Assembly: GCA_903642275.1 (NCBI GenBank)
Contig: CAHJWK010000003.1
Span: forward strand, 1-64,000
DNA from: Chitinophagaceae bacterium
Lineage (GTDB): Bacteria > Bacteroidota > Bacteroidia > Chitinophagales > Chitinophagaceae
DNA: 64,000 bases
Direction of reading: 5' to 3'
Position numbers and translations under genes: made by a program. The notes under the pieces were generated by a model. That model worked only from the letters and a program-made list of their open reading frames with translations. It was not told where the DNA came from and ran no database searches. Positions within the stretch are counted from its first letter, which is position 1. Each line of letters starts with the position of its first letter. This document shows, piece by piece, positions 17,147-48,810 of this stretch.

Positions 17147-17485
17147 AGTGTTTACTTAAGTATGTATCTGTAACCGACATGAAGGTAATTTAATCATTTC
17201 ACAGCTTAGATTTATTGATGTCGCTTCTTTAAGGCTCGTTAAAAAAATTTCTCCTATCTCTTTATAAAATGTTCTTGGCTCTTCTGCGGTTCGGCATAGT
17301 GTTATGATATCTCAGCAAAGTTTGCAGTTAAAAAGCTGGTCATAACAATCCATTTAACCGCTTTTATGAGTTATCATTAATATCAAAGACAATGATTGAA
17401 CACTTACCTTTACTTAAGTTATATCAGTCTAATAAAGAAAAAATAAATTTAAACTGAGATAGAGTTAGAAATAGAGTAAAAATAA

Positions 17486-17519
17486 AAAAGTCGTTGTTAA
17501 ACAACGACTTAGATTTTTT
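17486..17519. terminator. Bidirectional terminator next to att site 2
   Basis: A perfect 10-bp stem AAGTCGTTGT / ACAACGACTT with loop TAA is flanked by T-runs on both strands (minus strand TTTTTTATTTTT). On the minus strand it follows the tRNA-like tail at 17524-17537, as a tRNA gene's own terminator would. Confidence 0.75.
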
Positions 17520-17523
17520 GAAA

Positions 17524-17537: not shown

Positions 17538-17765
17538 TCCGGTTTATAGTTCACAAACTATTGATGTTTAATACCTTAAAATCACAATATTTTTTGGATA
17601 ACCGAATTTTCACCCTATCAAAAAACTTCCATCAATTCCGTTTAAAGATATTAAATTATTGTATGAAAATCTAATAATAAATTCTGACGTTGATTAACCT
17701 TCACTTAAGTTGTTTAACCATGTTTCATAAGCAGCGTTTCTTCATTTGGCAGCAATAAAGCTGCT

Positions 17766-21765: not shown

Positions 21766-23175
21766 TTATTCACTCACCAATATTTTGTATTGATATGGCT
21801 GCAATTGAATTGTATTAGCAACTGTGTAGGCACTTGCATCAAATGAATCTTTCCAGGTTGTGTTTTGCAACGCAGATGGCGTTGCATAATTAACAGCATT
21901 GTTTCGCACATTTACTATCACCAATACTTTTTCGCCGTTTAATTCTTTGGTAAATACACAGGCATCATTGCTATCATAAGAAGTTAAGCTGCCTTCCCGT
22001 ATTGCATCGCTGCTGTTTCTGAAAGCAATTACCTTTTTATATTCTGCCGTAACATCATAATTCTGGTTCCAGTTAACTTTTACTGTATTAAATGGAAATA
22101 TAATTGGCATTGTCATACCAACTTCCTGCCCGTCATAAATCATAGGAACGCTCTTCATGTATGCTACAACAATAAATGCAGCCATTGAGCCTGTTTTTCC
22201 ATTAAACAAACTTATCGGCGTACCATCTGAACCGTTTACATCATGATTGGTAATATAACGAACTACTTCCTGACCGTTAGATGCATTGGTATATTCAGAC
22301 GTGTTTAAATTATCAATAGATGTAACAGAAGCATTTGAATTATAAATTGATTTCAGGTTGCCGTAAAAAGCAAAACCAAAATTATAATCAAAGCCTGCTG
22401 TAAAGTTTGCACCGCGTGTACCTTCAGCAAGCATGAGTAATTTATGCGTTTGTATGTTGCGTAAAGTATCAATCGCCTGTTGCCAGAAATCCACCGGTAT
22501 ATTATCAGCAAAGTCGCAGCGGAAGCCATCAACGTTGGCTGTGTAAACCCAATACTTCATGTCTTTTATCATTTCAAGGCGCATAGCTGCATTGCTGAAA
22601 TTAAGCTGCGCCACGTCAGAGTAACCTGTGTTGGGCGGACTAACAATATTGCCTGTACTATCCTGCAGATACCAGTCTTTATGTTGTGTTATCCATGCGT
22701 TATCCCATGATGTATGATTGGCAACCCAATCAAGCATAACACTCATGTTGCGGCTATGCGCACCATCTATCAATGTTCGCAAATCTTTAAGCGTTCCAAA
22801 CTCTGTGTTTACTGATAAATAATCTTTAACACAGTAAGGAGAATTAACTGACTTCACTACCCCAACAGGATATATCGGCATTAAATAAATTACATTAACG
22901 CCTAAAGCTTTTATAGAATCCAACCTGCTTATAACGCCCTGAAAATTTCCTGCATTACTGAATGCACGCATATTTACCTGGTAAATAGTTGCATCATCAC
23001 GGTTTGGAACGCTGGTGAAAGGCGTTCCATATTGTTGTGGTGTTGAATCAATAACTGTTGTATCACCGCCATTTGGTGGCGGCGTAACAGGTGGTGTATT
23101 GTTTTTACTGCATGATACCAGCAATATCAACAGGAAAGAAAACAGGTTCATCTTAATAATTATTTGTTTACCCAT
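21766..23175 (-). CDS. GH13 alpha-amylase-family lipoprotein
   Basis: 469 aa. Signal peptide with lipobox Cys22 (ILLVSCSKN) and a Pro/Gly/Thr linker to ~45, so it is lipid-anchored. The catalytic barrel shows the four GH13 regions: DWVANHTSWD (149-158), GFRCDFADN with nucleophile Asp221, LMLAEGTRG with acid Glu251, and YITNHDVNG with Asp312. It hydrolyses alpha-glucans or maltodextrins. The last gene of the SusC-D-E-amylase operon; its ATG lies 2 nt after the SusE stop, so translation is coupled. An internal Met9 (MNLFSFLLIL) is an alternative start giving a cleaner signal peptide. Confidence 0.93.
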   Translation of the reverse strand: MGKQIIIKMNLFSFLLILLVSCSKNNTPPVTPPPNGGDTTVIDSTPQQYGTPFTSVPNRDDATIYQVNMRAFSNAGNFQGVISRLDSIKALGVNVIYLMPIYPVGVVKSVNSPYCVKDYLSVNTEFGTLKDLRTLIDGAHSRNMSVMLDWVANHTSWDNAWITQHKDWYLQDSTGNIVSPPNTGYSDVAQLNFSNAAMRLEMIKDMKYWVYTANVDGFRCDFADNIPVDFWQQAIDTLRNIQTHKLLMLAEGTRGANFTAGFDYNFGFAFYGNLKSIYNSNASVTSIDNLNTSEYTNASNGQEVVRYITNHDVNGSDGTPISLFNGKTGSMAAFIVVAYMKSVPMIYDGQEVGMTMPIIFPFNTVKVNWNQNYDVTAEYKKVIAFRNSSDAIREGSLTSYDSNDACVFTKELNGEKVLVIVNVRNNAVNYATPSALQNTTWKDSFDASAYTVANTIQLQPYQYKILVSE

Positions 23176-23177
23176 TA

Positions 23178-24293
23178 TTAGTTTTTATGCAGAGAATAAG
23201 TATAGTTGCCTGAAATATGCAGGTCAAGCGTGATAGTATAATTTCCATCTGCAGGCACTGTTAAAGCCTGTACGGATGCATCATAAGGCAGCAACGGATT
23301 ATCTGAATATTTTAAGTTGCCGTTTGCATCTATGCCAAAATCAATTTGCCACGCATTGTTTGCACGAAACTTAAATGCGCCGTTGTGAATCATGTTTGCT
23401 GTAACCGTCCAAACCTGGTTAGCTTCATCATAACTCATTTCAGTATCATTGCTCCAGCCGCCAAGTGTTGCATCACCAATAATCGCCCAGGTCATTTTAG
23501 TAGCCGTCCATGTATTATCATTCATGTTGGCTGTAATACGTATGTATCCGCCATCAGATGAATATAAACCACCGGCTGCACCATCCTGGCTAAATGTGCC
23601 ACTCACAACGTTACCATTTGTGCTGCTTCCGCCATCACCATAGTTTATATGGTTCCAATCCGGCTGTGTTGTAAACTTGTAATACTGCGGACCGGTTCCG
23701 GGCATGTATTCGTATGCTTCATAAATTCCGGGCTTTTGATACAACAGGTTTAATAAAGGTGCAGTAGGCGGGCTCCAGCCCTGGTATGCACCGGGAATGT
23801 ACAAGCTTAACCCATAAGGCGTAACTGTGAGAATAATTGTGTTTGTATAAACCGCCTTAATGGTTGATGCTGCGCCGTTGTACTGGTTTACATCAGCCTT
23901 AATTCTTATTGCAACTGCACTTGCTGTGCCTGGCGTTAAGCCTATGCCGTTTAACAGCGTGTTTAAATTTTTTCCGTTGAAATTATAGGTATATACATTG
24001 CTGCCCGCTAAAAATGTTTTTGCATTTGACCATGCAGTTGTATCTGATGGTTGCGTTAATTGCAATGTATAAGTAACAGCGGGGTGACTGCCGAAGTTTG
24101 CGGCCTGCCATTTAAAACTCACTACGGTATCATTATCGGTGCTTTGTGATAACACAATTGTATTTGTTGAGGCACTAAGCTGTTGCGAAATTTTACCATC
24201 GGTTATCGTAAATTGTTCACCATCTTTTTTGCATGATGCAAACATCACCACACACAAAAAAATAAATGCGCTGTATTTAAATATCTTGTTCAT
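23178..24293 (-). CDS. susE: SusE-type outer-membrane starch-binding lipoprotein
   Basis: 371 aa. Signal peptide with lipobox Cys21 (VVMFASCKKDGEQF). An N-terminal SusE domain (residues ~30-160, VSFKWQAANFGSHPAVTYTL) is followed by two carbohydrate-binding-like modules (YIPGAYQGWSPPTAPLLNLL near 170; WAIIGDATLGGWSNDTEMSY near 270). These are the GxxxGW-type starch-binding modules of SusE/SusF. It is expected on the cell surface holding glucan for SusC/SusD. 17 nt downstream of susD. Only one SusE/F gene is present here, whereas the Bacteroides locus has two. Confidence 0.88.
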   Translation of the reverse strand: MNKIFKYSAFIFLCVVMFASCKKDGEQFTITDGKISQQLSASTNTIVLSQSTDNDTVVSFKWQAANFGSHPAVTYTLQLTQPSDTTAWSNAKTFLAGSNVYTYNFNGKNLNTLLNGIGLTPGTASAVAIRIKADVNQYNGAASTIKAVYTNTIILTVTPYGLSLYIPGAYQGWSPPTAPLLNLLYQKPGIYEAYEYMPGTGPQYYKFTTQPDWNHINYGDGGSSTNGNVVSGTFSQDGAAGGLYSSDGGYIRITANMNDNTWTATKMTWAIIGDATLGGWSNDTEMSYDEANQVWTVTANMIHNGAFKFRANNAWQIDFGIDANGNLKYSDNPLLPYDASVQALTVPADGNYTITLDLHISGNYTYSLHKN

Positions 24294-24310
24294 AATAAAT
24301 TTTTATTGGA

Positions 24311-25903
24311 TTAATAACCCGGGTTTTGTTTAAGGTTAGGATTAGATATAATGTCTGAAGCCGGTAACGGGAACAGATTATAATGTGCATCAACGCCGGT
24401 GCCGTTTTGTACGCCACCTTTCCATGGCCATAAATAATTGCTGCTGGTAAATTCGCCAAAGCGTATTAAATCTGTGCGACGGCAGCATTCCCAATACAAT
24501 TCACGCTGACGTTCTTTCAACACATCATCCAATGTATAGCTTGTTACATTACCGGTTGAATTTTCGTAAGCACGCTGACGCAGCTTATTAAAATATTGTA
24601 ATGCAGTTGATGCATCGCCATTGCCGCCGCGTTTTGCAGCTTCAATATAAATTAAATATTGCTCTCCTAAACGAAACAACGGAAAATCTGTACTGCATAA
24701 AACACCATTGGGAGAATAAGGCGTTGTGCCGGTTGAAGTTTGATTGCTAAACTTATGCACTTCAATGCCATCAGTAAAAGTAATAACGCTGTTTATTTCA
24801 AGGCTGCCAACGCCAAACAATGCACGCTTATCGGTGTTGCCGGTGTAATCACCAAAATCCTGCGGCAGATTTTTAGTAGCACGATTACCAAGCCAGCCGC
24901 CTGCCGGTATGCCGAAATTTTTATTGTCTGTCGGGTCTGTGCCATGTGCAGAACAAATTAAAAAAGTGGTGCCACCATAATTTTGAGAGTTAACGGCATC
25001 GTAAGCAATAGACAAAATTTGTTCGGGATTATTTAGGTTGTTATCGCTTTTAAAAAGATTACTGTATTGCGGCATCAGTGAATAACCGGCAGCAATGACT
25101 TTTGATGCATAAGTAACCGCATCGTTATAACGTGCGGTGCCTGTATATACTTCAGCGTTCAAATATAAACGCGCAAGCAATGCCCAGGCTGATGCCTGGT
25201 CTGCACGGGCATATTCGTTTTGCTTTGGGGCAATTAACTCTGCATCAATTGCCATTAGCTCTGATTCAACATACTTAAACAAATCTGCGCGGCTTATTTG
25301 CTTTGGAATAAATTTCCCGATAGGGTCTGTTTCTGTAACAAAAGGCGGATTGCCAAACATATCCATCAATACCCAGTATTGATATGCTCTTAAAAACCTT
25401 GCTTCTGCGCGAAAATGTTTTATGTCATCAGCATCTTTACCGTTAAAGCCGCGGCTGCTTATTTCATCATCCGAAGATTGACGTATAAACTCGTTACAAA
25501 CGGTTATCTGGTAAAGACTTCTTTTATACAATGCCTCGATAAGAGGATCAGAAGATGTCCAGTTAAAATTATGCAGGGCTTGCAGGTTAGGATCATTCCA
25601 TGCGCAAACGTCTTCATCGGTAGTTAATTCCTGCAAATTAAAAGTACCACGTATATAATCAGTTGGCGCCTGGTCACCGCCCAAAGCTGAAATAACAACA
25701 TCAGAAGTGCCGACGCCGTAACTGCTTATGAGTGAGTAGCTGCCATACACTTTTGCAAGCACCTGTTTGTAACCATTTACTGTGCTGTATTGCGTTTCAG
25801 ATGTGTTGGTATTAAGCGGTTCGCGGTTTAAATTTTTTGTGCAGGCGGCAAATAACATCAAGCCGAAACTTAGCAGCGTTATTACTGAATGTTTATTGTT
25901 CAT
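24311..25903 (-). CDS. susD: SusD/RagB-family outer-membrane glycan-binding lipoprotein
   Basis: 530 aa. Lipobox Cys21 (GLMLFAACTKNLNREP). The typical SusD features are an N-terminal TPR-like fold with FRAEARFLRAYQYWVLMDMF, the phrase YARADQASAWALLARLYLNA, and C-terminal LRQRAYENSTG, LDDVLKERQRELYWECCRRT. It binds glycan as the lid of SusC. Follows susC by 17 nt. Paired with SusE and GH13, the likely substrate is starch, glycogen or maltodextrin (inference from context). Confidence 0.95.
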   Translation of the reverse strand: MNNKHSVITLLSFGLMLFAACTKNLNREPLNTNTSETQYSTVNGYKQVLAKVYGSYSLISSYGVGTSDVVISALGGDQAPTDYIRGTFNLQELTTDEDVCAWNDPNLQALHNFNWTSSDPLIEALYKRSLYQITVCNEFIRQSSDDEISSRGFNGKDADDIKHFRAEARFLRAYQYWVLMDMFGNPPFVTETDPIGKFIPKQISRADLFKYVESELMAIDAELIAPKQNEYARADQASAWALLARLYLNAEVYTGTARYNDAVTYASKVIAAGYSLMPQYSNLFKSDNNLNNPEQILSIAYDAVNSQNYGGTTFLICSAHGTDPTDNKNFGIPAGGWLGNRATKNLPQDFGDYTGNTDKRALFGVGSLEINSVITFTDGIEVHKFSNQTSTGTTPYSPNGVLCSTDFPLFRLGEQYLIYIEAAKRGGNGDASTALQYFNKLRQRAYENSTGNVTSYTLDDVLKERQRELYWECCRRTDLIRFGEFTSSNYLWPWKGGVQNGTGVDAHYNLFPLPASDIISNPNLKQNPGY

Positions 25904-25920
25904 TTTAATAATGTTTGAAT

Positions 25921-28881
25921 TTAAAATTGAATGTTTACGCCCAATGTATAAATGCGTGGCCGCGGATACAGCGCATAATCAAGACCACCATATATTTCAG
26001 GGTCAAGACCTGAATATTTTGTTACAGTAAACACATTCTGGCAAATGGCATTTACCTGAAGATGCAGTTTGTTATGCGCTACATAACCAGCATCATAAGA
26101 TAAGCCCAAATTATCCATCTTTAAAAAAGATGCATTCTCAACAAAATAATCACTTAAGCTTTGTCCGTAATAAAAATGATTATACAACACACTTGATAAA
26201 GTATTTGCCAGGTAACCAAGCGGATTTGTAATGTTTGATTCCGTTGCACCGGTTGATAAACCATTATACATATAGTTGCCGATGTTTGCACGCAACACTG
26301 TGCTTAATGTCCAGCGCTTATAGGTGAACTGTGTTGTAAACCCAAGCACGTATTTTGGAAATGGCGATTTATATCTGTACAAATCGTTTGAATTAATAAC
26401 ACCGTCTCCGTTAATATCTTCATACACACCTTCAATGGGTTTTCCATCTTTTCCATATTCCTGGTGATATACATAAAAAGCAGAAGCGTTATATCCAACG
26501 GAATTTATCTGAACGCCATTGGAAAGAGGCGTACCCGGATAAGAAGAATCTTTTGTTGCCGTAAGATTTGTTATTTTATTGGTATTGTATGATGCGTTGA
26601 AACTTACATTCCATTGAAAAGTTTTTGTTTGAATGGGAATAAAGTTCAATAACAATTCAACACCTTTATTTTCTACGTTGCCAACATTGGTAACGATACT
26701 GCTGCTAAAGTTTGAACCTGCGGGTATTGGAATCAGATTAAGTAAATCTTTTGTTTTTTTATAATAAAAATCAAGGCTTCCGTTTATGCGGTTGTTGAAG
26801 AAACCATAATCCAAACCTGTGTTATACGCTTGTGTTTGTTCCCATTTAATCCCTGCATCATAAGCTGCCGGCGTGCCCTGGTTATAGTAGCTGTTACCAA
26901 ATAAAACCTGCGATGCATTATCACCTAAACCATAAACCGGCAGGTAACTATAATTTGCAATACCTTCCTGGTTGCCGGTTACACCATAACTTAACCTTAA
27001 TTTTAAATCTGATAATGTTTGTGAGTTTTTAAGTGCACCTTCCTGGTTTATGCGCCACGTAAATGCCACCGATGGAAACGTACCCCAACGAACATCTTTT
27101 GCAAAGCGTGATGAACCATCTGTACGCAAAGAAGCCGCAAGAATATATTTCGTGTTGAAGGTGTAAATCAACCTTCCATAGTAAGAGATTAATGTATTTT
27201 CTGGCTTATCCAGCGGAAACTTTGGCCCGGTACCGGGAATAGTGTCGCCATTTGCACGGAAGCCATAATAGTTATAATTAGTAGAAAGATTATTATAATA
27301 TCCGTAGCCCGCTGTTGCATTAATATTGCTTTTAATAGCATTAATGGTTTTATTATAGTTTAAGTAAAACTCTGCTACGGTATTATCTATTTTGTTTTCA
27401 TAATGATTATGCTGTCCGCTATCCAAATAATTTTGAGCTGCCAGGGCAGGTACATCAACCTTGCCTTCACCTTTTGCAATATCATAACCAAGATTTAAAT
27501 TGGCATGTAACTCAGGCAAAACAGGCAGTGCATAATCGAAACGAATATTGCCATAACTTCTTTCAACGTTGCTATGATTGTTATATAAATTAAGCAAGGC
27601 AACCGGGTTTTTCGGCGCTAATTTATTCAGCGTTACTGCGCCTGTATTCGGGTCCGTTGAAGCCCACTCATAATAACCGCCATACTTTGAGTTTGCATCA
27701 TATACTGACTGTGTAGGATCGAAGTAAACCGCAGAACTGATGGCTGCTCCGTTTGCAAAACGTGTGTTGCTTACAGAGCCTTTTACGTTTAATTCAATTT
27801 GCAAACTGTTGTTGAATAAATGCGGCGAAAGGCTGATGCCTGCAGATGTGCGTTGCAGGTTATCTGTTTTTAAAATACCATCCTGGTTTAAGTAACCGAG
27901 CGATACCCGGTATGGAATAGTTTTCAAAGCGCCTGAAATGCTTATATTATTATCTGTAGTGATTGCTTTTTGATAAATTTCATCCTGCCAGTTAGTATTT
28001 GACTTGCCTAATAAGGATGTGTACGGATGCACACCGTCATACGTCCCTTTACCGATTGAATCAACCAGGTTTCTAAATTCACTTGGTGACATAACATTTG
28101 CTGTTTTAGTCACTTCTGATAAAGAAAGATTTGTTGAAAAACTGATAACGGGCTTGCCCGAAGTTCCTTTTTTTGTGGTGATGATAATTACGCCGTTAGA
28201 AGCACGTGAGCCGTAAATCGCTGTTGATGCAGCATCCTTTAATACAGTAAACGAGGCAATATCATTAGGATTAATTAAGCTTAAAGCATTAGCGGCTCCA
28301 TAAATATTACTTGGAGCTAAAGGAATTCCGTCAATTACAATCAGCGGGTCGTTGCTGGCATTTAATGAAGCACCGCCACGAATGCGAATGGTACTTCCTG
28401 CACCAGGCGAACCACCGTTAGATGTTATGGAAACTCCGGCCACTTTACCTGCTATCAATTGTTCCGGCGTAGTTATAACACCTTTTTGGAAATCTTTGGA
28501 GGTTACTGTTGCAATAGAACCAGTTAGTTCTTTTTTACGTTGTGTACCATAACCGATTACTACGACTTCATTAAGGTTGGCTGTACTTGGATGTAATACA
28601 ATTTGTTCGCTTGAAGCCGTCTGGATGGTTTGGGCATCATATCCAACAAAACTTACAATTAAAGAATCGGTTGTTGAGGCCTTTAAAGAAAATGTACCCT
28701 TTTTGTCAGTTAAAGTTCCCTTGCTGCTGCCCTTTAGCTGAACTGAAGCTGCTTCAATAGGTTCACCTTTTTCGTTTTTAATAATACCAGAAATTTTTGT
28801 TTGTGCCTTCAGGGCAGACTGAATGGAAATAATTCCTGCAAGCAGGCATAGCAGCCGAATGACTGTTCGTAATTTCATCAT
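25921..28881 (-). CDS. susC: SusC/RagA TonB-linked outer-membrane receptor
   Basis: 986 aa. Signal peptide (1-27, ends LKAQTKISG), carboxypeptidase-regulatory-like domain (~28-105, GIIKNEKGEPIEAASVQLKG), plug domain with NEVVVIGYGTQRKKELTGSI and the RIRGGASLNASNDPLIVIDG signature, then the large beta-barrel ending NLGYDIAKG ... YTLGVNIQF with a C-terminal Phe. It imports oligosaccharide with energy from TonB. First gene of the SusCDE-amylase operon. The 294-bp upstream gap (28882-29175) should hold the promoter. Confidence 0.95.
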   Translation of the reverse strand: MMKLRTVIRLLCLLAGIISIQSALKAQTKISGIIKNEKGEPIEAASVQLKGSSKGTLTDKKGTFSLKASTTDSLIVSFVGYDAQTIQTASSEQIVLHPSTANLNEVVVIGYGTQRKKELTGSIATVTSKDFQKGVITTPEQLIAGKVAGVSITSNGGSPGAGSTIRIRGGASLNASNDPLIVIDGIPLAPSNIYGAANALSLINPNDIASFTVLKDAASTAIYGSRASNGVIIITTKKGTSGKPVISFSTNLSLSEVTKTANVMSPSEFRNLVDSIGKGTYDGVHPYTSLLGKSNTNWQDEIYQKAITTDNNISISGALKTIPYRVSLGYLNQDGILKTDNLQRTSAGISLSPHLFNNSLQIELNVKGSVSNTRFANGAAISSAVYFDPTQSVYDANSKYGGYYEWASTDPNTGAVTLNKLAPKNPVALLNLYNNHSNVERSYGNIRFDYALPVLPELHANLNLGYDIAKGEGKVDVPALAAQNYLDSGQHNHYENKIDNTVAEFYLNYNKTINAIKSNINATAGYGYYNNLSTNYNYYGFRANGDTIPGTGPKFPLDKPENTLISYYGRLIYTFNTKYILAASLRTDGSSRFAKDVRWGTFPSVAFTWRINQEGALKNSQTLSDLKLRLSYGVTGNQEGIANYSYLPVYGLGDNASQVLFGNSYYNQGTPAAYDAGIKWEQTQAYNTGLDYGFFNNRINGSLDFYYKKTKDLLNLIPIPAGSNFSSSIVTNVGNVENKGVELLLNFIPIQTKTFQWNVSFNASYNTNKITNLTATKDSSYPGTPLSNGVQINSVGYNASAFYVYHQEYGKDGKPIEGVYEDINGDGVINSNDLYRYKSPFPKYVLGFTTQFTYKRWTLSTVLRANIGNYMYNGLSTGATESNITNPLGYLANTLSSVLYNHFYYGQSLSDYFVENASFLKMDNLGLSYDAGYVAHNKLHLQVNAICQNVFTVTKYSGLDPEIYGGLDYALYPRPRIYTLGVNIQF

Positions 28882-31104: not shown

Positions 31105-32597
31105 AAACAAATTGAAAGCAGGGCGCAGCAGGCGATGCTGCCAAGGTTAAGACCAAGATGCTTTTATGATTTGGTGATTGAAGTTGCGATTGTAAGACCG
31201 GGTCCCATACAAGGTGATATGGTGCACCCCTACTTGCGCCGCCGCAATAAAGAAGAGCCGGTTGAATACCCATCAAAAGCCTTGGAAGAAATTTTAGGGC
31301 GCACATTAGGTGTTCCGTTATTCCAGGAACAGGCAATGAAAATCGCAATTGTTGCCGGAGGTTTTACACCTGCAGAAGCAGACCAGTTAAGAAGAAGCAT
31401 GGCAACATTTAAGGTGCATGGCATGGTTAAACAGTTTCAGGATAAGCTCATGAACGGGATGCTAAAGAATGGTTACACAAGAGAATACGCAGAAAGAATT
31501 TTTAAACAGCTGGAAGGTTTTGGAAGCTATGGTTTTCCTGAATCTCATGCAGCAAGCTTCGCTTTGCTTGTATATGTATCTGCATGGATAAAATGTTATT
31601 ATCCTGATGCCTTCGCCTGTGGTTTATTAAACAGTCAGCCAATGGGTTTTATGCGCCTGCTCAAATTGTGGGTGACGCAACAAAACACAATGTGGAAGTG
31701 AAGCCGATTGACATAAACCATTCTTATTGGGATAATATATTAGAAGAAAAAGTAAATAATTATTGTGCCTTGCGTCTTGGATTCAGGCAAATCAAAGGCA
31801 TACGTCAAGAAGACATTACTATACTTGTTGATGCAAGAACAAAACTATTTACCAGTATCAATGAATTATTGGGTGCCGGTGTGTCAATAGCCGCTTTAGA
31901 AAGATTAGCTGACGCTGATGCATTCAGGTCTGTTGGTTTTGACAGAAGGCAGGCACTTTGGGAAATCACAGCATTGCATGACAACCCTGTTGCTATATTC
32001 AAAGGTCAGCAGTCAGAAAGTAAATCAGAAAACAATGTGAAGCTGCCACAGTTATCATTATCAGAACATGTATTGCACGGTTATGCTGTAACATCACTTT
32101 CCGTTAAAGCGCATCCTGTAAGTTTTATACGCGAGCAGTTATCAATGTGTAATGTTATACCAACCGGAGATTTAATTAAAGGCAATGATAGTGATATAGT
32201 GCGTGTAGCGGGTTTGATATTGGTAAGGCAAAGACCCGGCACAGCTGGTGGCATTTGCTTTATCACCATCGAAGATGAAACAGGCAATGCAAACCTTGTT
32301 GTATTCAAAAATTTATTTGAAAATATTTATCGCAAAGAAATATTGCAATCAAAATTATTAATGGTAGAAGGTAAACTGCAGAAAGAAGGTGAAGTAATAC
32401 ATGTAATCGTACAGCACTGTGAAAACTGGTCTAAACTATTGAGAAAGTTAACTTCAAAGAACAAAGATGAAGTATCATTGAGTATTCTATCACCGAGAGA
32501 TGAAAACGATGGGACCCGCTTTAGCGATAAGCATAATACTTATGGTGGTTGGATAAAACAGGAAAAACTTTTCCCGGAGGCGAGGAATTTTAAATGA
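31105..32597 (+). pseudogene. dnaE2: Error-prone DNA polymerase DnaE2 (ImuC), C-terminal remnant
   Basis: It starts within the polymerase core ([20 protein letters not shown], then [20 protein letters not shown]). It runs through [20 protein letters not shown] and LLNSQPMGF, shifts frame near 31650, and continues [18 protein letters not shown] with the helix-hairpin-helix FRQIKGI and a C-terminal OB fold (AGLILVRQRPGTAGGICFIT). About 490 of ~1060 residues remain; the PHP and part of the catalytic domain are gone. Neither ImuA nor ImuB is nearby. Inactive relic of an SOS mutasome gene. Confidence 0.88.
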
Positions 32598-38966: not shown

Positions 38967-39973
38967 ATGCTTAAAAACAGGGGTGTATTAACACTTGAAG
39001 AATTTACTATTCAGTCTTTCAGGCAAATTCGCCATGCTACAGGTGAATTAAGTGCTTTATTAAGAGATATTGGCCTCGCTGCAAAACGTATTAACGCAGA
39101 AGTTAGAAAGCTTGGCCTAGTAGATATGCTGGGCGATCTGGGTGCCACAAATATTCAGGGTGAAGAAATAAAAAAATGGATGTATATGCCAACAACCAGT
39201 TGATTGCAGTATTAAAACATGGTGTTAGCTGCGCCGGTATCGCCAGCGAGGAGCTTGAAGACATTGTAGTGTTCAACGACCAGTTAAGTAATCAAAGCAA
39301 GTACATAGTGATGTTTGATCCATTGGATGGAAGCAGTAACATAGATACTAATATTTCTATAGGAACAATTTTCGGCATTTATAGACGAGTGAGTAAGGCC
39401 TCAGGTGCCTGCGACAGTAAAGATTTTTTACAGCCCGGTCTGGCGCAAATTTCTGCAGGGTATGTTATTTATGGCTCATCAACTATGTTTGTATATGCCA
39501 CCCGGAGAGGTGTGAACGGATTTACCTTAGATACTGAAATAGGAGAGTTCTGTTTAAGCCATCCTGAGATAACATGTCCTTGTAATGGAAATATATATTC
39601 AGTTAATCATGGAAATTTTTTTAATTACGAAAAGCATATTCAGGTGTATATAACAAGTTGCCAGCAAAAGACAAAATTAAACGGTGGCCCATATACTAAC
39701 CGCTATACGGGCAGCATGGTTGCAGACCTTCATCGTACTTTAATTAAAGGTGGAATTTTTTTGTATCCTGCCACTTCAGCAAAATCAGAAGGCAAACTTC
39801 GTTTATTGTACGAGTGCAACCCGTTCGCCTTTATCATAGAAGTTGCAGGCGGCAGGGCTACCAGTGGAAGTCAGCGTATTCTTGAAATTAAACCAACTCT
39901 CCTGCATCAACGCACCCCGTTAATCATTGGCAGCGTTAATATGGTTGAAGAGTGTCTCTCGTTTATAGATTAA
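38967..39973 (+). pseudogene. fbp: Fructose-1,6-bisphosphatase, split by a -1 frame change at A7
   Basis: Together the two frames encode a full-length class I FBPase (~335 aa, gluconeogenesis): TGELSALLRDIGLAAKRINA and DLGATNIQGEEIKK in frame one, then MDVYANNQLIAVLKHGVSCA, the metal-binding FDPLDGSSNID, TGSMVADLHRTLIKGGIFLY and LRLLYECNPFAFIIEVAGGR in the -1 frame. The switch falls on seven A residues at 39170-39176, read A AAA AAA, with AGGG 9 nt upstream. This could be a loss-of-function deletion of one A, a sequencing error, or a slippery site restoring full-length protein. The second frame has its own ATG at 39176. Confidence 0.8.
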
Positions 39974-40006: not shown

Positions 40007-40306
40007 TTAAAACGATTTCAATTTTTCGTTCATTTCCGTAAGTCCGGCTTTCTTTAGAATATCATCTGAAACCGCTTTAAGTTCCAGCACAGTTTCCTTT
40101 GCTGCAATATCAAGAATGTTATTCTCTTCACTCTCTTCTTTAACCGTTAGTCCGCGTTCAATTACTTTACTTAAAAGCAATACATTTTTTCTTTGAATGG
40201 TAAGTTGAATTTTTACGTTGTCACTCATTCCCGGAATGCTTAAAACAGTATCAAAAACTTTTGCGATTGTGCTTGTTGTTTCCATATTATTCTTATTCAT
40301 TTTCAC
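40007..40306 (-). CDS. Small helical protein, unknown
   Basis: 99 aa, soluble, predicted helical (TIAKVFDTVLSIPGMSDNVK, then VLLLSKVIERGLTVKEESEE, LKAVSDDILKKAGLTEMNEK). There are internal Met starts at residues 3 and 8. No family recognised. It lies convergent with fbp and just outside the primase gene; it may belong to the mobile element or to the host side. Confidence 0.5.
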   Translation of the reverse strand: MKMNKNNMETTSTIAKVFDTVLSIPGMSDNVKIQLTIQRKNVLLLSKVIERGLTVKEESEENNILDIAAKETVLELKAVSDDILKKAGLTEMNEKLKSF

Positions 40307-40475: not shown

Positions 40476-41374
40476 ATGAAATTCGGAAACAATTTTCCAA
40501 CCGTTGAGGAAGTAAAAAACACGGATATAGTTGATTACCTGCAAAGCTTAGGATTTAAGCCGGCAAAAATAATTCGTTATAACCACTGGTATTTGTCGCC
40601 GTTCAGGGATGAAAAGACTCCTTCCTTTAAAGTAAACCAAAGCATGAATCGATGGTATGATTTCGGTGATGGCAAAGGCGGTAACATCATTGATTTTGGA
40701 ATACTATACCATCATTGCAGTGTTGGTGAGTTTTTAAAAAAGATGAATACTTCTTTTTCTTTTCGCCAGCAAAACATTGAACCTAATAATGAAGATGACG
40801 ACGCGAAAAAAATCAAAGTGATTACAGCAAAGGAAATCAGTTCTCTTGTGCTCATCAGGTATCTTCATAAAAGAAGAATATCGCTAGATTTAGCATCTAA
40901 CTTTTGTAAGGAAATTGACTATGAATTATACTGTAAGCGATACTACGCTTTAGGTTTTATAAATGATGCGGGCGGGTTTGAATTATGCAGTGAAAAATTT
41001 AAAGGCGGCAGTTCTCCAAAAGACATTACTGTTATAAAAATTGATGCCGAAACCCTTACTGTGTTTGAAGGCTTTTTTAACTTCCTTTCTTACTTAACTA
41101 TTCATCAAAAACAGGAACAACCTAAAACAGATTTTCTAATCTAAACTCTACTTCATTTTTTGACAAAAGTCTGCCTCTCATGCAATCATATAAACAAAAG
41201 CACCTTTATCTTGATTGTGATACAACAGGACAGAAATGCATACAAAAGGCACTGGCAATAGATAAAGAAAGTTTTATTGATGAAAGAGCTTTGTATAAAG
41301 ATTATAAAGATTTAAATGACTGGATAATGACTTTAGGTCAATCGCAAAAGCGAGCTCTGCAGATAAACGTGTAA
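40476..41374 (+). pseudogene. DNA primase-like protein (CHC2 zinc finger + Toprim), frameshifted
   Basis: Frame one (222 aa) begins with a primase-type start (VDYLQSLGFKPAKIIRYNHW, YLSPFRDEKTPSFKVNQSMN, GDGKGGNIIDFGILYH), whose zinc ligands are mostly replaced. It ends in the first Toprim strand (LTVFEGFFNFLSYL). It stops at 41144 after losing one base; the next frame continues LNSTSFFDKSLPLMQSYKQK and the second Toprim motif LYLDCDTTGQKC. Such primase-like genes are standard at the start of Bacteroidota mobilizable elements. Broken by a single indel. Confidence 0.8.
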
Positions 41375-41480
41375 TCCGGCTTTGACAAAAGACAATAAGT
41401 TACGTATTGAAGTAATTATTAAAATCAGGAAGTATGACAGTATTTAATAAAGCCGTTGAGATTGCCCGCTTTGCCGCAAT

Positions 41481-41519
41481 CGGCAAGATGTACGGTTGTA
41501 TCACAACCGGATCTTGCCG
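41481..41519. other. Candidate oriT of second module
   Basis: Nested inverted repeats: outer CGGCAAGAT / ATCTTGCCG (9 bp, perfect) and inner CGGTTGT / ACAACCG (7 bp) around the loop ATC, 62 nt upstream of the ancestral mobC start. It sits between the primase and mobC genes, where oriT is expected in this element type. There is no T-run, so a terminator is less likely. The rest of 41375-41580 has no gene. Confidence 0.6.
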
Positions 41520-41580
41520 CTCTTGCTCCGAAGTCGTGAGCGGTCAGTGAACAGATCTTAAAAGTGTAAAATGAAATGTG

Positions 41581-41969
41581 ATGAGTGAAGCGAAAGATAA
41601 CAGGTACAAGTGGCTCATATACGATTGAAGCAGGATGAACACGCGAAAATTAACAAGAAGTTTTCTAACTCCACCTGCAGAAAACTTAGCGAATATGCAA
41701 GACGCATTTTGCTTGATAAAGTAATTACAGTATACCAACGCAATCGCTCTCTGGATGACTTTATGGCGGAAATGATAAAGCTGCGAACCGAGCTGAATGC
41801 AATTGGAAATAACCTTAATCAAAGCGTAAAAAAGCTTTACACGTTAAGCCAGCTGCATGAGTTTGAAAGTTGGATTAATCAAAATAAAAATGACCATAAA
41901 ATTTTGCTTGAGAAAATTAACAAAATAAAAAGTAAAATCAATCAAATTTCGAACGAATGGTTGCGATAA
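41581..41969 (+). pseudogene. mobC: MobC-like mobilization protein, frameshifted near its start
   Basis: ATG 41581 starts MSEAKDNRYKWLIYD and stops at 41628, while the body reads in another frame (IRLKQDEHAKINKKFS, STCRKLSEYARRILLDKVIT, ELNAIGNNLNQSVKKLYTL). The SEAKDNRYKW head and the IRL-xx-xEH body belong together in intact homologs, so one indel near 41615 is inferred. Expression from a GTG at 41610 could still give a nearly full-length 119-aa protein. Its stop overlaps the relaxase start by 13 nt. Confidence 0.75.
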
Positions 41970-43209
41970 TTCACAGCAGCAAAAGTCTGCGAAATGCTTT
42001 GCTTTATAACGAGAATAAAGTGAAGCAAAAAGTTGCTGATTTTATTCATGCAGGCAATTACCCCAAAGACACTTACTTACTTGGTTTCAGCGATAAAATA
42101 AATCGTATGGAAAAGCTAATTGAACTCAATCAGCAAACGAAAATAAACAGCGTACACATATCGCTGAATTTTGACAGCAGAGATATTTTAAATGAAGATA
42201 TCTTGAAAAAAATTTCTGACAATTATCTTAGCGATATTGGTTTTGGGAATCAGCCATATCTTGTATATAAACATAATGATTCAGGTCATCCGCACATACA
42301 CATAGTAACTACAAATATCAGGAGCGACGGCAGCCGGATTTCTTTACACAATCTTGGTAAAAACGAGTCAGAAAAAGCAAGAAAATCAATCGAACAACAA
42401 TTCAGGTTAATCAGTGCTGAACGGCAGAAAAAACTACAATACAATTTAAAGCCGGTTGATGTAAAAAAAGTGCAATACGGTAAAACGGAACTAAACGTGC
42501 GATCATGAACGTGTTAGACTATGTGTTGCCAAACTACAGGTATGTATCAATCGCAGAATTAAATGCAGTGCTTAAACTGTATAATATAACAGCCGACAGA
42601 GGAAGCGAAACATCAAACATTTATAAGAATAACGGCTTGGTGTATCGCATACTTGATGGTGATGGGAGAAAAATTGGTACGCCCATAAAAGCCAGTTTGA
42701 TTTACAACAAGCCCACCCTTAAAAATATTGAAGGTCGCTTTGCTAAAAATGATATCGAGAAACAGATGTATAAACGCAGGGTAATGAATGCCATAGATTT
42801 TGCTCTTTTACAAAAATCAAATCAATCTTTTGTGGGTTTAACGCAGGCTCTCCAAAAAGAAAAAATTCACATGGTATTGCGGCAAAATGATAACAGGGTA
42901 ATCTATGGAGTGACTTATGTCGACCATCAGACAAGATGCGTTTTCAACGGAAGTCAATTAGGTAAACAATATAGTGCAAATGCTCTGCGCCAAAGATGTA
43001 CAGCAGAACAAATCAAACAGGATGAAAACCCGCACTTAACTCACCCATCCTTTGAAGAAGAGAAATCAGAATTCAAATCTTATTTACCTGGTATAGAAAA
43101 AGTGTTTGAAGATTTACTCGAGCCCGAAGAAAATAAATTTACCAACGAGCCATCGGAACTGCGCAAGTTTAAAAAAGGAAAGAGGAAACAAAAGCAATCG
43201 CACAATTAA
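41957..43209 (+). pseudogene. Relaxase/mobilization nuclease, split by a frameshift
   Basis: The first part (183 codons) holds the relaxase core: KINSVHISLNFD and the HUH motif GHPHIHIVTTN (His111, His113, His115). It stops at 42508. The second part (from 42505, ATGA overlap) carries on the same protein in another frame: the sequence KRAI before MNVLDYVLPNYRY restores the usual continuous reading if one base is added near 42489. Further on are LNAVLKLYNITADRGSETSN and IGTPIKASLIYNKPTL. The nuclease core could still be made; the C-terminal region would need reinitiation at the ATGA. Confidence 0.82.
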
Positions 43210-43220
43210 AATCAAATGTT

Positions 43221-45161
43221 ATGTCAATGAATACCGGTGAGAATGAACAGGGGTTAAGAAAGGTAATTGACCTTACAAGAATGATAAGTATTGTGATGCT
43301 GTTATTGCATTTTTGTTTCTATTGTTATGCAACATTTTATCACTGGAACCTGACAGCAAAAATTCCGGATATAATATTAAATAATATTGGCAAGACCGGG
43401 TTGTTCAGCAGCTTCCATAAAACAAAATTAATTTCACTTGGCGTGTTGTTATTATCACTTGTAGGAGCAAGAGGGAGAAAATCAGACAAGCTAAATTACA
43501 GAACCGCACTTGCCTATTTTATATCTGGACTATTTATATACTTTATAAGTGTGCTTTGCTTGTATATTCCCACGTCAGATCAATTCATAACGCTTGCCTA
43601 CATTTCATGCACATCGTGCGGATTTGTTCTTGTTTTAACCGGTGGTGGCTTAATATCAAGAATTATAAAAGACAAATTAGCCAATGATGTTTTCACTAAG
43701 CAAAATGAAACTTTTCCACAGGAAGAAAAATTAATTGAAAACGAATACTCAATCAACCTGCCTGCACAATACAATCTGAAAGGGAAAATTATAAACAGCT
43801 TTATAAATTTTATTAACCCGATGCGGGGATTATTGGTGATGGGGTCTCCTAAAGCCGGCAAATTTTATTTTATTATTCAGCACATCATTAAACAGCATAT
43901 TGAAAAAGGTTTTTCAATGTTTATTTACGACTTCAAATATGATGATCTTTCGCGAATTGCTTACAACCATTTTTTAAAATTTAAATCAAAAAAGTATCAG
44001 GTTGAACCACAATTTTATGTGATTAATTTTAATGATTTAAGCCGCTGCCACAGGTGTAATCCGCTTGACCCAAAAAATATGACCGACATAACTGACGCTG
44101 TTGAATCTGCAAGAACAATCATGCTTGGTCTAAATCGTTCGTGGATTAAAAGACAAGGCGAATTTTTTGTAGAATCACCTATAAATTTTATGACTTCCAT
44201 TATATGGTTTTTAAAGAAATTTCATGATGGAGACTATTGTACCCTACCGCATGCAATAGAAATGATGCAAATTGATTATGATAAATTGTTTACGGTATTA
44301 AGAACAGAAAGTGAAATTGAAGCTTACATGAATCCATTTTTATCAACTTATCTTAATGATTCAATGGAGCAACTGCAGGGTCAAATCGATGCTGCAAGAA
44401 TAGGTATCGCAAGGCTCTCATCACCGGCTTTATATTATGTTTTGTCCGGCAATGATTTTACATTAGATATTAATAATCCAGATGAACCTAAAATAGTATG
44501 TCTCGCAAATAACCCTCAAAAACAGCAGGTGTATGGTGCCGTTTTATCGCTGTACATAAGCAGGATGACCAAAATTGTAAACCAGAGAGGAAAATTAAGG
44601 AGCAGTTTGATATTTGATGAGTTCCTGACAATCTACTTCAACGGCATAGATAATCTTATTGCGACAGCACGCTCAAACAAAGTTGCCACAACAATAGCTG
44701 TGCAGGATTATAGCCAATTGAAGAATGAATACTCCAGAGAACAGGCCGAAGTCATTTTAAATATTATGGGCAATATAATTGCTGGACAAGTTAGCGGTGA
44801 GTCAGCAAAATTCTTATCTGAAAAGTTTGGTCGTATTATGCAGGACAGGGAAAGCATTTCAATCAACAGTAACGATACGTCAATCACCAAATCAAATCAA
44901 TTGGAACAGGCAATACCTGCATCAACAATTGCGAGTTTATCAAGCGGTGAATTTGTAGGCATGGTTGCGGATAACCCTGACCAAATTATAAATTTAAAAT
45001 CCTTTCATTGTAAGATTATCAATGACCATGATGCCTTAAAAACAGAAAGTGATTTGTATGAGCAGATACCTGAAATAAATAAGGTTGACAGTACTATTGT
45101 TCAAAGGAACTACCAGCAGATAAAACAAGAGGTGCAGGATATAATTGATACGGAGTTATAA
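43221..45161 (+). CDS. VirD4/TraG-type coupling ATPase with altered Walker A
   Basis: 646 aa. About four membrane helices in the first 145 residues, then a cytoplasmic ATPase that links the relaxosome to a secretion channel. Family phrases: KGFSMFIYDFKYDDLSRIAY, CNPLDPKNMTDITDAVESAR, GIDNLIATARSNKVATTIAV, QDYSQL. Walker A at 208-215 reads GSPKAGKF where GKS or GKT is expected, and the Walker B neighbourhood reads IFDEFLTIYF (residues ~464-473) where the family usually has Pro after DEF. The open frame is full length, but ATP binding is probably impaired. Confidence 0.85.
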   Translation: MSMNTGENEQGLRKVIDLTRMISIVMLLLHFCFYCYATFYHWNLTAKIPDIILNNIGKTGLFSSFHKTKLISLGVLLLSLVGARGRKSDKLNYRTALAYFISGLFIYFISVLCLYIPTSDQFITLAYISCTSCGFVLVLTGGGLISRIIKDKLANDVFTKQNETFPQEEKLIENEYSINLPAQYNLKGKIINSFINFINPMRGLLVMGSPKAGKFYFIIQHIIKQHIEKGFSMFIYDFKYDDLSRIAYNHFLKFKSKKYQVEPQFYVINFNDLSRCHRCNPLDPKNMTDITDAVESARTIMLGLNRSWIKRQGEFFVESPINFMTSIIWFLKKFHDGDYCTLPHAIEMMQIDYDKLFTVLRTESEIEAYMNPFLSTYLNDSMEQLQGQIDAARIGIARLSSPALYYVLSGNDFTLDINNPDEPKIVCLANNPQKQQVYGAVLSLYISRMTKIVNQRGKLRSSLIFDEFLTIYFNGIDNLIATARSNKVATTIAVQDYSQLKNEYSREQAEVILNIMGNIIAGQVSGESAKFLSEKFGRIMQDRESISINSNDTSITKSNQLEQAIPASTIASLSSGEFVGMVADNPDQIINLKSFHCKIINDHDALKTESDLYEQIPEINKVDSTIVQRNYQQIKQEVQDIIDTEL

Positions 45162-45228
45162 AGAATTATCAGTGACCCTACAAAGGATTTTTTGGTTGTA
45201 AAAAAGTAAGGTAATATTTAAGCATTGC

Positions 45229-46271
45229 TTATTGTTTTCTATCCCTTGCAAGTTGAATAGCCTTATGTAATTTTTTAACTAACAATTCTTTTGGTGGCAA
45301 CTGAGTTAGAATTCCGCAACCCGAATTCTGCCTTTATCTAACTCAAGTAATTCAATTTGTTCTTGCTGCTTTTGCGAACAAAGAATTAATCCAATTGGAT
45401 TTTCTTCGCCGAGCTTGCGTTCGTATTTGTCAAGCCAACTTAGATATAATTCCATTTGACCTTTATAACTTGCTTTAAACCGGTCGAGCTTTAAATCTAT
45501 AGCAATTAATCGCTTCAAACCACGATGATAAAATAGCAAATCAATTTTGTGGTCTTCATTGTCTATCACAGTTCTTTTTTGCCGCGCAATAAAAGCAAAG
45601 TCATTTCCTAACTCAATAAGAAATTGTTGCAATTGATTTAATATGGCCGTTTCCAAGTCGTTTTCACTAAACAAATTATTTAATCCTAAAAAATTCAAGA
45701 CCTAAGGGTCTTTGAATACTAAGTCTGGCGTTACAGCACCTTCAGATTTTAAAATAGCAAGCTCCTTTTCCATCAAGGCTTCAGGTTTTTTTGAAAAAGC
45801 AGTTCGTTAAAAAAGCATGCTTGCGATTCTTTGTCTTAGTATTCTTACGCTCCACACTTCCCGCTTGCTAAGCTCAACATAGAAATCTCTTTTTAAGTTG
45901 TCCTCAATAATCAAAAGTTCAACAAAATGGCTCCAGCTTAATTGTTGCGATAGTGTCGCAACTTTTTGCGCATCATTGAATTTCTTGTAAAAATTTATCA
46001 TGCGGTTTAAATTGGATTTGGTAAAACCTTTACTATAGTTCATTGACAATTGTTGCGACAATGTCGCAACAATTAATTCGCCGTAACCGGCACGCTTATT
46101 TTTCAGAAGAACCTCATTGATTGTTTTTCCAATATGCCAATATAATAACGTGATTTCCTGATTAACAGCTAAAGCGATTCGGTAACGGCTTTGCTCTATT
46201 AACTGCGATATATTCTTATATAAAGATTGAACAGCTTCAATTTCAGGTTTCGCATTTAAATTATTTTTCAT
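45229..46271 (-). pseudogene. DUF1016 (YhcG-like) PDDEXK nuclease, two stops and a frameshift
   Basis: The N-terminal DUF1016_N domain (HIGKTINEVLLKNKRAGYGE, LSWSHFVELLIIEDNLKRDF) reads to a TAA at 45807-45809. The same frame continues RTAFSKKPEALMEKELAI to a TAG at 45702-45704, then the nuclease domain (NDFAFIARQKRTVIDNEDHK, IDLLFYHRGLKRLIAIDLKL) to 45306. One more base restores LTQLPPKELLVKKLHKAIQL and the natural end at 45229. PDDEXK residues (E/D...IDLLF...AIDLK) are still present. Two nonsense changes plus an indel show long disuse. Confidence 0.88.
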
Positions 46272-46306: not shown

Positions 46307-47554
46307 TTAAAGCGCCTGGAGAAATTGGTCTTCACTTTTCTTCTTAAACTTATTTCGCACTACTTGCATGTCATTGCTCACTTTTCTGTCAAGTACTTTG
46401 GCATAAATCTGCGTAATTTTTAAACTTCTATGCCCAAGCATCTTGCTTACAGTTTCTATAGGAACACCATTATTTAAAGTAATTGTAGTTGCAAAAGTGT
46501 GACGTGCTATATGAAAGGTTAGGTGTTTATGGATGCCGCATATATCAGCTATTTCTTTAAGATATGCGTTAAGTTTGGTATTGCTTGGAACAGGTAATAA
46601 ACTACCTTCAAATTCACATTTAGGATGCGTTTTATAATGCTCCATTATATTAAGCACTGTTGGTAGTAAAGGAATTCTTGTTGGTGAACCTGTTTTTTTG
46701 CGGCGTGTAATTATCCATTTTTCATTATCAATACCTATACATACATCTGTCCTCTTCAACCGCTTCGCATCAATATAAGCGAGCCCGGTGAAGCAGCTAA
46801 AAAGAAAAATATCCCGTACCTGATTTAAACGTTCAATACCAAAATCTTTTGCGGCCATTGTTTGCACTTCATCTTCGTTTAAAAAGTCGCGAACCACTTC
46901 TTTCTTGCTCATCTTATAACCAAAAAATGGGTCTTTGATCAACCAGTTATTTTTGATGCATACGTTTATTACTTTCCTAAAATTAGAAAGGTACTTGATG
47001 GTCGTATTGTGATTGCACCGTTGTTGGCTTTTGAGATAGAATTCAAAATCTGTTATAAAATGGTATTGAAGATTGTTAATCTCAACATCATTGACCTGGT
47101 ATTTCCATTTAATAAATTTTGTTGTATGGTCATACGTGGTTCTATACTTTCCAAAGGTTGCTTTTGAACAATCCAAGCCAATGAGTTGTCTTAATTGCTC
47201 ATTATGTTGCTTAAAAATCTCAAGTAAACAATAGGGTCGCTCTTTTATGCCGAGCCATTTTTTTCGAAACGTATCAATAGTTAATCCTGAACTCTCATGG
47301 GCAATTTCCGATTGATGATTATAAACTTTTTGCTTTAAAGCATCCAAAAAATAGTTCAAAGTCTTTGCTTCTTCATTGTTACCTTTTGCTCTACCTGAAG
47401 CCGCACTCCATTTTGCAGGCAACACACAACGCTGCGTGCTTTGTTCAAATCGCCTACCGTCAATTGTAACACGCAAGTAAATCGGAACTAATCCATCCTT
47501 TCCTCTCTTGGATGTTTTGCTGTAAAAAAGAACGCTCAATTTTGTTTCCATCAC
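46307..47554 (-). CDS. Tyrosine recombinase/integrase (Bacteroidota element type)
   Basis: 415 aa. The N-terminal arm-type and SAM-like domains (LSVLFYSKTSKRGKDGLVPI; YHFITDFEFYLKSQQRCNHN) precede the catalytic domain: FTGLAYIDAKRL (box I, Ala where Arg is usual, as in IntDOT-like enzymes), the Lys strand RRKKTGSPTRIPLL, HIARHTFA (HxxR), MLGHRSLKITQIYAKV with the final His and nucleophile Tyr. It inserts and excises the element at the adjacent att site. It is complete, unlike almost all other genes of its module, and directly precedes the terminator and att-like site at 47.7-47.8 kb. Confidence 0.93.
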   Translation of the reverse strand: MMETKLSVLFYSKTSKRGKDGLVPIYLRVTIDGRRFEQSTQRCVLPAKWSAASGRAKGNNEEAKTLNYFLDALKQKVYNHQSEIAHESSGLTIDTFRKKWLGIKERPYCLLEIFKQHNEQLRQLIGLDCSKATFGKYRTTYDHTTKFIKWKYQVNDVEINNLQYHFITDFEFYLKSQQRCNHNTTIKYLSNFRKVINVCIKNNWLIKDPFFGYKMSKKEVVRDFLNEDEVQTMAAKDFGIERLNQVRDIFLFSCFTGLAYIDAKRLKRTDVCIGIDNEKWIITRRKKTGSPTRIPLLPTVLNIMEHYKTHPKCEFEGSLLPVPSNTKLNAYLKEIADICGIHKHLTFHIARHTFATTITLNNGVPIETVSKMLGHRSLKITQIYAKVLDRKVSNDMQVVRNKFKKKSEDQFLQAL

Positions 47555-47741
47555 TTCCTCCTTTTAATTGGTTAAAAATAAATTTTAGATGGTCGCAAGA
47601 CAAGATGTCCATTTCATGGACTGCTTATCCAGCAAGGATTCCAGCGATATTCGGTTACCCAAACTTTAAAAACTTTTGGGTAACCGAATGGAGCACCAGA
47701 GAATTGAGATTATTTGATACTTTTTGATAAGGTGAGAAAAC

Positions 47742-47800: not shown

Positions 47801-47817
47801 GCGGACCGGACGGGATA
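47801..47817 (-). other. att-like core (tRNA 3' tail), site 3
   Basis: Minus strand TATCCCGTCCGGTCCGC: same core as site 1 plus the CGC end shared with site 2. It lies 247 bp from the integrase start, where the attachment site is expected. The remainder of a tRNA is missing upstream, so an element separates this site from the intact tRNA gene. Confidence 0.7.
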
Positions 47818-48090
47818 AGTCGTTGCCACCTATATTATTTGATTACCAATTACTTAAAATTTTAGTCGATTTTTTAGTCGATTACAAAGAGCAAATTCAA
47901 CAAAGCTTTACTTATTTTTTATCAGTTGACTTTATCTGTATAAAAATACATTTTTACTTATAAATATCTTATTTAAATTTTCAATTAAACCTAACTTTAT
48001 TAATGCAAGCATGAATGAGTAAAGCGTAGTAAACACCGCCGCATTTTATATTCTTTTATCAATTCTTTATTAGTACTTCAGTTACATTTA

Positions 48091-48810
48091 TTGAAAAGTA
48101 AAGAGATGAAAGAAATGATGAAAAGAGCACTTGCTTTTATAACCTTTGAACAACTGTCGACGAAGAGTCAAGTTGAATTGCGATACCAACACCTTGGTAA
48201 TGCTCATCCGGTGCAAAACAATGCTCTGGCATTAATCACAGCCAGACATAAAATAATTTATGAATACAGGTACAATCACGTTTTACATTTTTGTTTTATA
48301 TTATTTATTGCAACCATTACTACACATTTTGCTATAAGCAGAATAAGTTTACCAGCAGTAATTATTGCAGGCATACTTTCTTATTCAATTTTATATCTGT
48401 TTAATTACCAATTTACTTTCAACTTTATATTACTTCGAAATATTAATATAGTTGAAGAACAATGCAGGCAAAAAGCTGGGGAAGAAATAAAAAAGTGTCG
48501 AAAGTTGCAGTATTCAAATTTAGCGTTAGTATTAATTGATAAAGTGAATACTCAAATTAATGGAATGGCTCCCTTATCATGCGATGACAACTCAGCTTTA
48601 ATGCTCACAGAATTGTATGGGGTTGATACGGGAAGTATGAAAAAAAACCTTGAATTACTTTACATAAAAAATAAAAGAAAACATTTTACAGAACGAAACA
48701 AAACAGAATATAAAAATTGTTTTAATGAAGCTTATGATTATTTCGAAAAGCGTCAATGTTTAGAGGGTGCAAAAAAAGTTAAGGAACTTGAAATGAATTT
48801 CTTTACTTAA
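48091..48810 (+). CDS. Two-TM protein of unknown function, element-end copy 2
   Basis: 239 aa, roughly 80% identical to the 13295-14008 product by eye, with the same layout: short cytoplasmic start (MKRALAFITFEQLSTKSQVE), two membrane helices (~65-108), and a soluble C-terminus ending LTELYGVDTGSMKKNLELLY and ERNKTEYKNCFNEAYDYFEK. Most differences are conservative and no stops occur, so both copies seem maintained. It transcribes away from the att-like site at 47.80 kb. An RteC-like C-terminal resemblance is weak. Function unknown. Confidence 0.75.
   Translation: MKSKEMKEMMKRALAFITFEQLSTKSQVELRYQHLGNAHPVQNNALALITARHKIIYEYRYNHVLHFCFILFIATITTHFAISRISLPAVIIAGILSYSILYLFNYQFTFNFILLRNINIVEEQCRQKAGEEIKKCRKLQYSNLALVLIDKVNTQINGMAPLSCDDNSALMLTELYGVDTGSMKKNLELLYIKNKRKHFTERNKTEYKNCFNEAYDYFEKRQCLEGAKKVKELEMNFFT

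Follow-up and report, generated by a model that had tools for sequence, protein, structure and literature searches.

A probable 30.3-kb integrative mobilizable element with damaged transfer genes and an intact integrase in a Chitinophagaceae genome

The window, i.e. the first 64,000 nucleotides of a contig from a Chitinophagaceae bacterium (G000:C3:1-64000; genome of 4.29 Mb in 213 contigs), probably contains a 30.3-kb Bacteroidota integrative mobilizable element (IME) of the MobA/MobB/MobC type, which was recently and partly inactivated. It looks like an ordinary stage of decay of a known kind, not like a new system. An initial annotation had described positions 40476-46271 as a mobilization module decayed gene by gene beside an undamaged integrase. 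The decay of the module is upheld and goes slightly further than described; the span covers only the right part of the element. Genes were named by Pfam and NCBIfam profile matches and defence candidates by PADLOC. Lesions were called by frame-aware alignment of the proteins of intact relatives to the window DNA. The ends of the element and the flanking sequences are as follows.

17405 to 17523, plus strand: left flank V, a non-tRNA sequence with a terminator-like hairpin and one half of a split locus, recognised by similarity to contig C22 of the same genome
17524 to 17537, plus strand: left attachment core GCGGACCGGACGGG, a direct repeat of 47801-47814
17594 to 17606, plus strand: arm-type site TTGGATAACCGAA inside the left end; the other two copies lie at the integrase end
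47650 to 47688, no strand assigned: inverted arm-type pair TTGGGTAACCGAA at the integrase end; a matching pair lies upstream of the integrase in G064 and L049
47801 to 47814, plus strand: right attachment core GCGGACCGGACGGG, matching the 3' end of tRNA-Asp on contig C23
47815 to 48810, plus strand: right flank U, a leader containing TTTAGTCGA repeats plus an unnamed gene of 239 aa, forming the other half of the split locus, recognised by its own-genome copies

On contig C22, V, the core and U stand uninterrupted. When the two window flanks are joined at the core, they align to C22 continuously through the core, over 1116 bp at 78.9%. Taken separately, the left junction matches C22 as far as the core's last base and no further, and the match of the right junction begins at the core's first base. 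V including the core is 87% identical over 133 bp to C22, where the right flank directly follows. The hairpin motif of V occurs twice in the genome, and U has three own-genome copies with 78-83% identity. For the attachment core, a 16-mer with up to three mismatches has two matches in the window against 0.02 expected, and the arm-type site TTGGRTAACCGAA has three in 64 kb against 0.14 expected, the left copy lying 57 bp inside the left core. Their position and conservation mark the arm-type sites as putative arm-binding sites of the integrase. Based on the joined-flank alignment, the core repeat and the arm-type sites, attL is placed at 17524 and attR at 47801. Attachment sites flanking the element, as in an IME, are thus represented by core repeats, arm-type sites and a split paralogue.

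At the level of sequence, the split locus, the direct core repeats and the arm-type sites show a site-specific insertion into a non-tRNA locus. The 14-bp core is a copy of the tRNA-Asp 3' end. The tRNA-Asp gene of the genome itself lies intact on contig C23, next to an accA-like gene, which we take to be accA from its sequence. No tRNA was found in a search of the 64-kb window, and an Rfam search of the window gave zero matches. The closest intact relative, G064, uses tRNA-Asp, its integrase lying about 250 bp from the tRNA-Asp 3' end next to an accA-like gene, whereas the window element sits in the non-tRNA locus. In the proposed course of events, the element would have been inserted by site-specific recombination at the core matching tRNA-Asp, presumably catalysed by its own integrase, into a non-tRNA locus, an uninterrupted paralogue of which is still present at another place in the genome. 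The primase, the relaxosome accessory gene, the relaxase, the coupling ATPase and the DUF1016 gene would each have been damaged afterwards. This suggests that an integrase targeting tRNA-Asp can also act on a tRNA-like core that is part of a dispersed non-tRNA unit. The genes of the module are listed below.

40007 to 40306, minus strand: unnamed conserved 99-aa gene of the mobilization module, without lesion against nine of nine relatives
40476 to 41374, plus strand: primase with a CHC2 zinc finger and a Toprim piece (Toprim below cut-off; Pfam), shifted at about 41140
41578 to 41969, plus strand: MobA-type relaxosome accessory gene, MobC_2/NikA-like (Pfam, NCBIfam)
41957 to 43209, plus strand: MobB relaxase (Pfam Relaxase, NCBIfam Bacteroid_MobB), shifted at 42486-42489
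43221 to 45161, plus strand: MobC coupling ATPase, YWFCY/VirD4-like (NCBIfam NF041326)
45230 (approximate end) to 46271, minus strand: DUF1016/YhcG nuclease cargo gene (Pfam), PADLOC candidate PDC-S02
46307 to 47554, minus strand: tyrosine integrase (Pfam), intact, without lesion against G064

The primase has a net loss of one base, which had initially been put near 41138 and is placed at 41140 by all eight reference proteins. In the mobA-type gene, ten of ten references agree on a net one-base loss within 41606-41621. The shift reported near 41615 is therefore real, but the name MobC given to this gene does not hold, as NCBIfam assigns it to the MobA type. One reference, L036, adds two upstream stops because its open reading frame (ORF) extends beyond the start used by the others. 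Alignments with nine of nine references likewise reproduce the relaxase shift noted near 42489 as a net one-base loss at 42486-42489. The NCBIfam set comprises MobA, MobB (the relaxase) and MobC (the coupling protein). MobC scores above its cut-off, and the broken MobA and MobB pieces below theirs. The relaxase and mobilization genes that an IME would need in functional form are thus frameshifted against all references, which makes the element a decayed relative of functional IMEs. The 99-aa gene has no Pfam match, and its position upstream of the module is conserved in relatives.

The coupling protein reaches 1073.7 bits against the curated NF041326 cut-off of 900, and its ORF is open. Its Walker A motif reads GSPKAGKF, compared with G[ST]PG[SA]GKS in the matched relatives, and thus departs from the canonical form by two replacements, G211K and S215F. 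Both columns are invariant across the 28 outgroups, and L033, the G064 locus, shows no change there. The GKF in place of GKS/T had been recognised initially; the second Walker A change is added here, as is a premature TAA at 45159-45161, which was missed at that time and cuts off about 16 residues in comparison with five of five references. The early end and the two replacements at invariant columns strongly suggest that the ATPase activity of the coupling protein was lost. A match to the coupling protein was found in 110 of 294 family genomes searched. Among the matches listed, 7 of 150 coupling-gene rows (counted by eye) carry an internal stop, and most copies are open. A search of the window's own assembly revealed no second YWFCY coupling gene.

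In the DUF1016 gene, the TAA and TAG stops already reported at 45807 and 45702 (45807-45809 and 45702-45704) and the shift reported near 45308 (45307-45310) were all recovered with seven of seven references, and likewise with L041. The DUF1016_N and YhcG_C domains are both present but separated by stops, instead of forming the one open gene of a PDC-S02 system. Given these lesions, the capacity for self-mobilization was very probably lost.

The integrase aligns over 403 residues to its G064 relative with zero lesions and retains the HxxR, LGH and Tyr boxes. The initial reading of an undamaged gene is therefore supported, and the element has a site-specific integrase of its own, as expected of an IME. 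As the sequences of the integrase, the two cores and the arm-type sites are intact, excision and re-insertion may still be possible; no excisionase was identified. Under uniform random decay, 1.5 lesions would be expected in the integrase, given the seven found in roughly 5.8 kb of other genes. The probability of zero integrase lesions is then 22%, or 26% if all seven are spread over everything.

The comparison of substitution rates proposed in the initial annotation was carried out, with the result that the integrase has not evolved more slowly than the dead genes. Saturation is extensive at four-fold sites, which differ by 0.39-0.75 in the comparisons made, and dN/dS (the ratio of nonsynonymous to synonymous rates) is thus unusable. 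Polarised amino-acid changes on the branches to the window and to L033 were 19 vs 8 for the integrase (p 0.05), 29 vs 15 for the relaxase (p 0.05), 40 vs 47 for the coupling gene, 20 vs 16 for the primase and 8 vs 6 for mobA. Outgroup-invariant columns changed in the window vs L033 amount to 13 vs 11 of 82 (primase), 1 vs 1 of 21 (mobA), 7 vs 8 of 111 (relaxase), 22 vs 14 of 227 (coupling) and 1 vs 0 of 104 (integrase). Terminal branches for window/L033 are 0.563/0.771 in the primase, 0.324/0.248 in mobA, 0.639/0.327 in the relaxase, 0.258/0.276 in the coupling gene and 0.269/0.159 in the integrase; the panels differ between genes, so that column and branch figures are not strictly comparable across them. 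The invariant columns were counted without L036 in the mobA panel and without L003, which duplicates the L033 locus, in the coupling panel. Two of 19 integrase loci gave no ORF of at least 380 aa.

A stronger constraint on the integrase than on the broken genes was considered and rejected. The rates show no consistent acceleration. Compared with their intact sisters, the dead genes have no clear excess of changes, and on that basis the decay looks recent. Single lesions do not reveal in which order the genes were lost. An intact integrase requires no special selection, and the earlier proposal that it is kept because it is useful does not follow, given the 22-26% probability of chance escape and a number of polarised changes no lower than in broken genes. 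The related idea of other elements sharing the attachment site gains some substance, as the tRNA-Asp core also occurs on C22. The partners it calls for did not appear: the own-genome stretches examined contain no element with the same arm-type sites, and the assembly has no further YWFCY coupling gene.

The remainder of the interval is cargo, including stress-type genes and a DnaE piece. Two of its loci are listed here.

21766 to 28881, minus strand: starch-use locus with alpha-amylase, SusE, SusD and a SusC-like TonB receptor in open frames (Pfam)
38967 to 39973, plus strand: fructose-1,6-bisphosphatase (FBPase) gene, frameshifted by the net loss of one base at about 39169-39178, beside a run of A

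The FBPase frameshift is seen with seven of seven genus references, and the gene is open in the seven other genus genomes searched. It is the only PF00316 gene in the assembly. Because it lies at a run of A, this shift could be a sequence error; those in the primase, mobA and relaxase are not in long runs of one base. The protein differs by 23% of amino acids from that of the congener G178, while accA differs from G178 by only 6%. FBPase of five of six other genus copies is 11-15% from G178, and that of G007 24%. The gene may be a relaxed native copy or one from an unsampled relative; these figures cannot tell which. A synteny comparison with genus relatives gave no empty site; when 18 window proteins or pieces were compared with the FBPase regions of the relatives, matches were limited to the two pieces of FBPase itself. 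No mating-pore genes (type IV secretion system) were seen among the annotated ORFs of 17.5-47.8 kb, small or broken ORFs not being searched. Positions 31135-32597 hold pieces of DNA polymerase III alpha in two overlapping frames without the N-terminal part, probably a pseudogene remnant.

Several observations weigh against a 30.3-kb element. The left end of the G064 element was not found within 20 kb further left, so that the left boundary is drawn from the window genome on its own. The window lacks RadC, DUF932 and SSB, which some relatives carry to the left of the 99-aa gene. FBPase is unusual as cargo and by sequence nearest to its own genus, with 75-77% for the four best genus matches vs up to 73% outside. 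The missing genes and the affinity of FBPase would suit a smaller element, confined to about 40.0-47.8 kb, that lost its left part by deletion and persists as a remnant next to FBPase; the V-core at 17.5 kb would then be an unrelated att-like site. This is unlikely, since the split paralogue, the core repeat and the arm-type site all indicate 17524, and a V-core would occur by chance within that distance and on that strand with a probability of roughly 0.004 for one copy. Quite improbable is a non-conjugative island moving within the genome via its own integrase between tRNA-Asp-like cores, including the non-tRNA core in U, and carrying the starch-use locus and the only FBPase, with selection keeping the integrase and the ends while the transfer genes rot.

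Two further explanations concern the lesions. The integrase might be kept by selection if the element, or others with the same core, still moved through site-specific recombination, with transfer supplied by a helper in trans. The intact integrase, cores and arm-type sites and the single change among 104 invariant integrase columns are consistent with this, and mobilization in trans is known for elements that lack a relaxase (PMC5704250). It is nevertheless improbable, as the integrase has changed no less than the dead genes relative to L033, chance alone spares it often enough, and the assembly lacks another YWFCY coupling gene. That the lesions are sequencing or assembly errors in a functional element is very improbable. 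Every frameshift seen, including that of FBPase at its run of A, is a net one-base loss, which speaks for such errors. However, substitutions account for the three in-frame stops and for both Walker A changes, and no single-base run longer than four is present where the primase, mobA and relaxase are shifted. These lesion types and non-homopolymer contexts argue against assembly error. The partly inactivated 30.3-kb IME is a fairly well delimited element in the course of losing its mobility, and the same genome offers an uninterrupted paralogue of the insertion site for comparison. If excision were demonstrated, it would bear on whether recombination outlasts conjugation in decaying elements.

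Further observations concern the flanks. The copies of U lie at window 47815-48810, window 13306-14306 (minus strand) and G000:C22:32417-33409. Its 239-aa protein has no Pfam or NCBIfam match, and relatives occur in 18 other family genomes, some on contigs with related integrases. No whole copy of U was found in the seven other genus genomes searched, with one 40-base match in G107. On C22, a related integrase (about 50% identical; L070 8638-10213) lies just past a tRNA-Ser, 4.2 kb from the uninterrupted V-core-U. On C23, the own tRNA-Asp is followed by TTTAGTCGA repeats and by defence-type IetA/IetS, DndH-like and methyltransferase genes (PADLOC; L068 5000-17959), perhaps another element at tRNA-Asp. 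Two adjoining minus-strand ORFs without Pfam match, possibly one broken gene, lie just inside the left end (window 18256-19350).

The sister element in G064 (contig C7, same family) matches the window element in gene order between the 99-aa gene and the coupling gene, in the arm-type pair and in the tRNA-Asp core, with 72% identity in the coupling protein and 74% in the integrase. It differs in that all genes are open and in its location in tRNA-Asp beside the accA-like gene. The slot between coupling gene and integrase is occupied by CBASS-like genes in G064 and by the DUF1016 gene in the window. The former encode an HNH-SAVED effector, JAB, E1-E2 and cyclase (PADLOC; L033 10767-16998). A scan of named genomes yielded 11 integrase relatives with at most 54% identity and no closer element. 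In G178, of the same genus, the coupling gene (L032, G178:C281) is 84% identical, cut short and interrupted by an internal stop elsewhere, and adjoins a different integrase (39%). As it is broken at another place beside a different integrase, such modules have probably decayed more than once in the genus.

Known Bacteroidota IMEs with MobP relaxases include NBU1, NBU2, Tn4555 and Tn4399 (PMC5704250). The window element shares relaxase-based mobilization with all of them, and a tyrosine integrase of its own with NBU1, NBU2 and Tn4555. It differs from the four in its broken transfer genes and its own coupling-type gene, and from NBU1 and NBU2, which target tRNA 3' ends, in its insertion outside a tRNA gene (PMC5704250). 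The cis-mobilizable elements (CIMEs) and tandem accretions treated there resemble it in being decayed with attL and attR kept, here beside the core-bearing unit U. A CIME has lost its integration genes (PMC5704250), and this identity was rejected because the integrase of the window element is intact.

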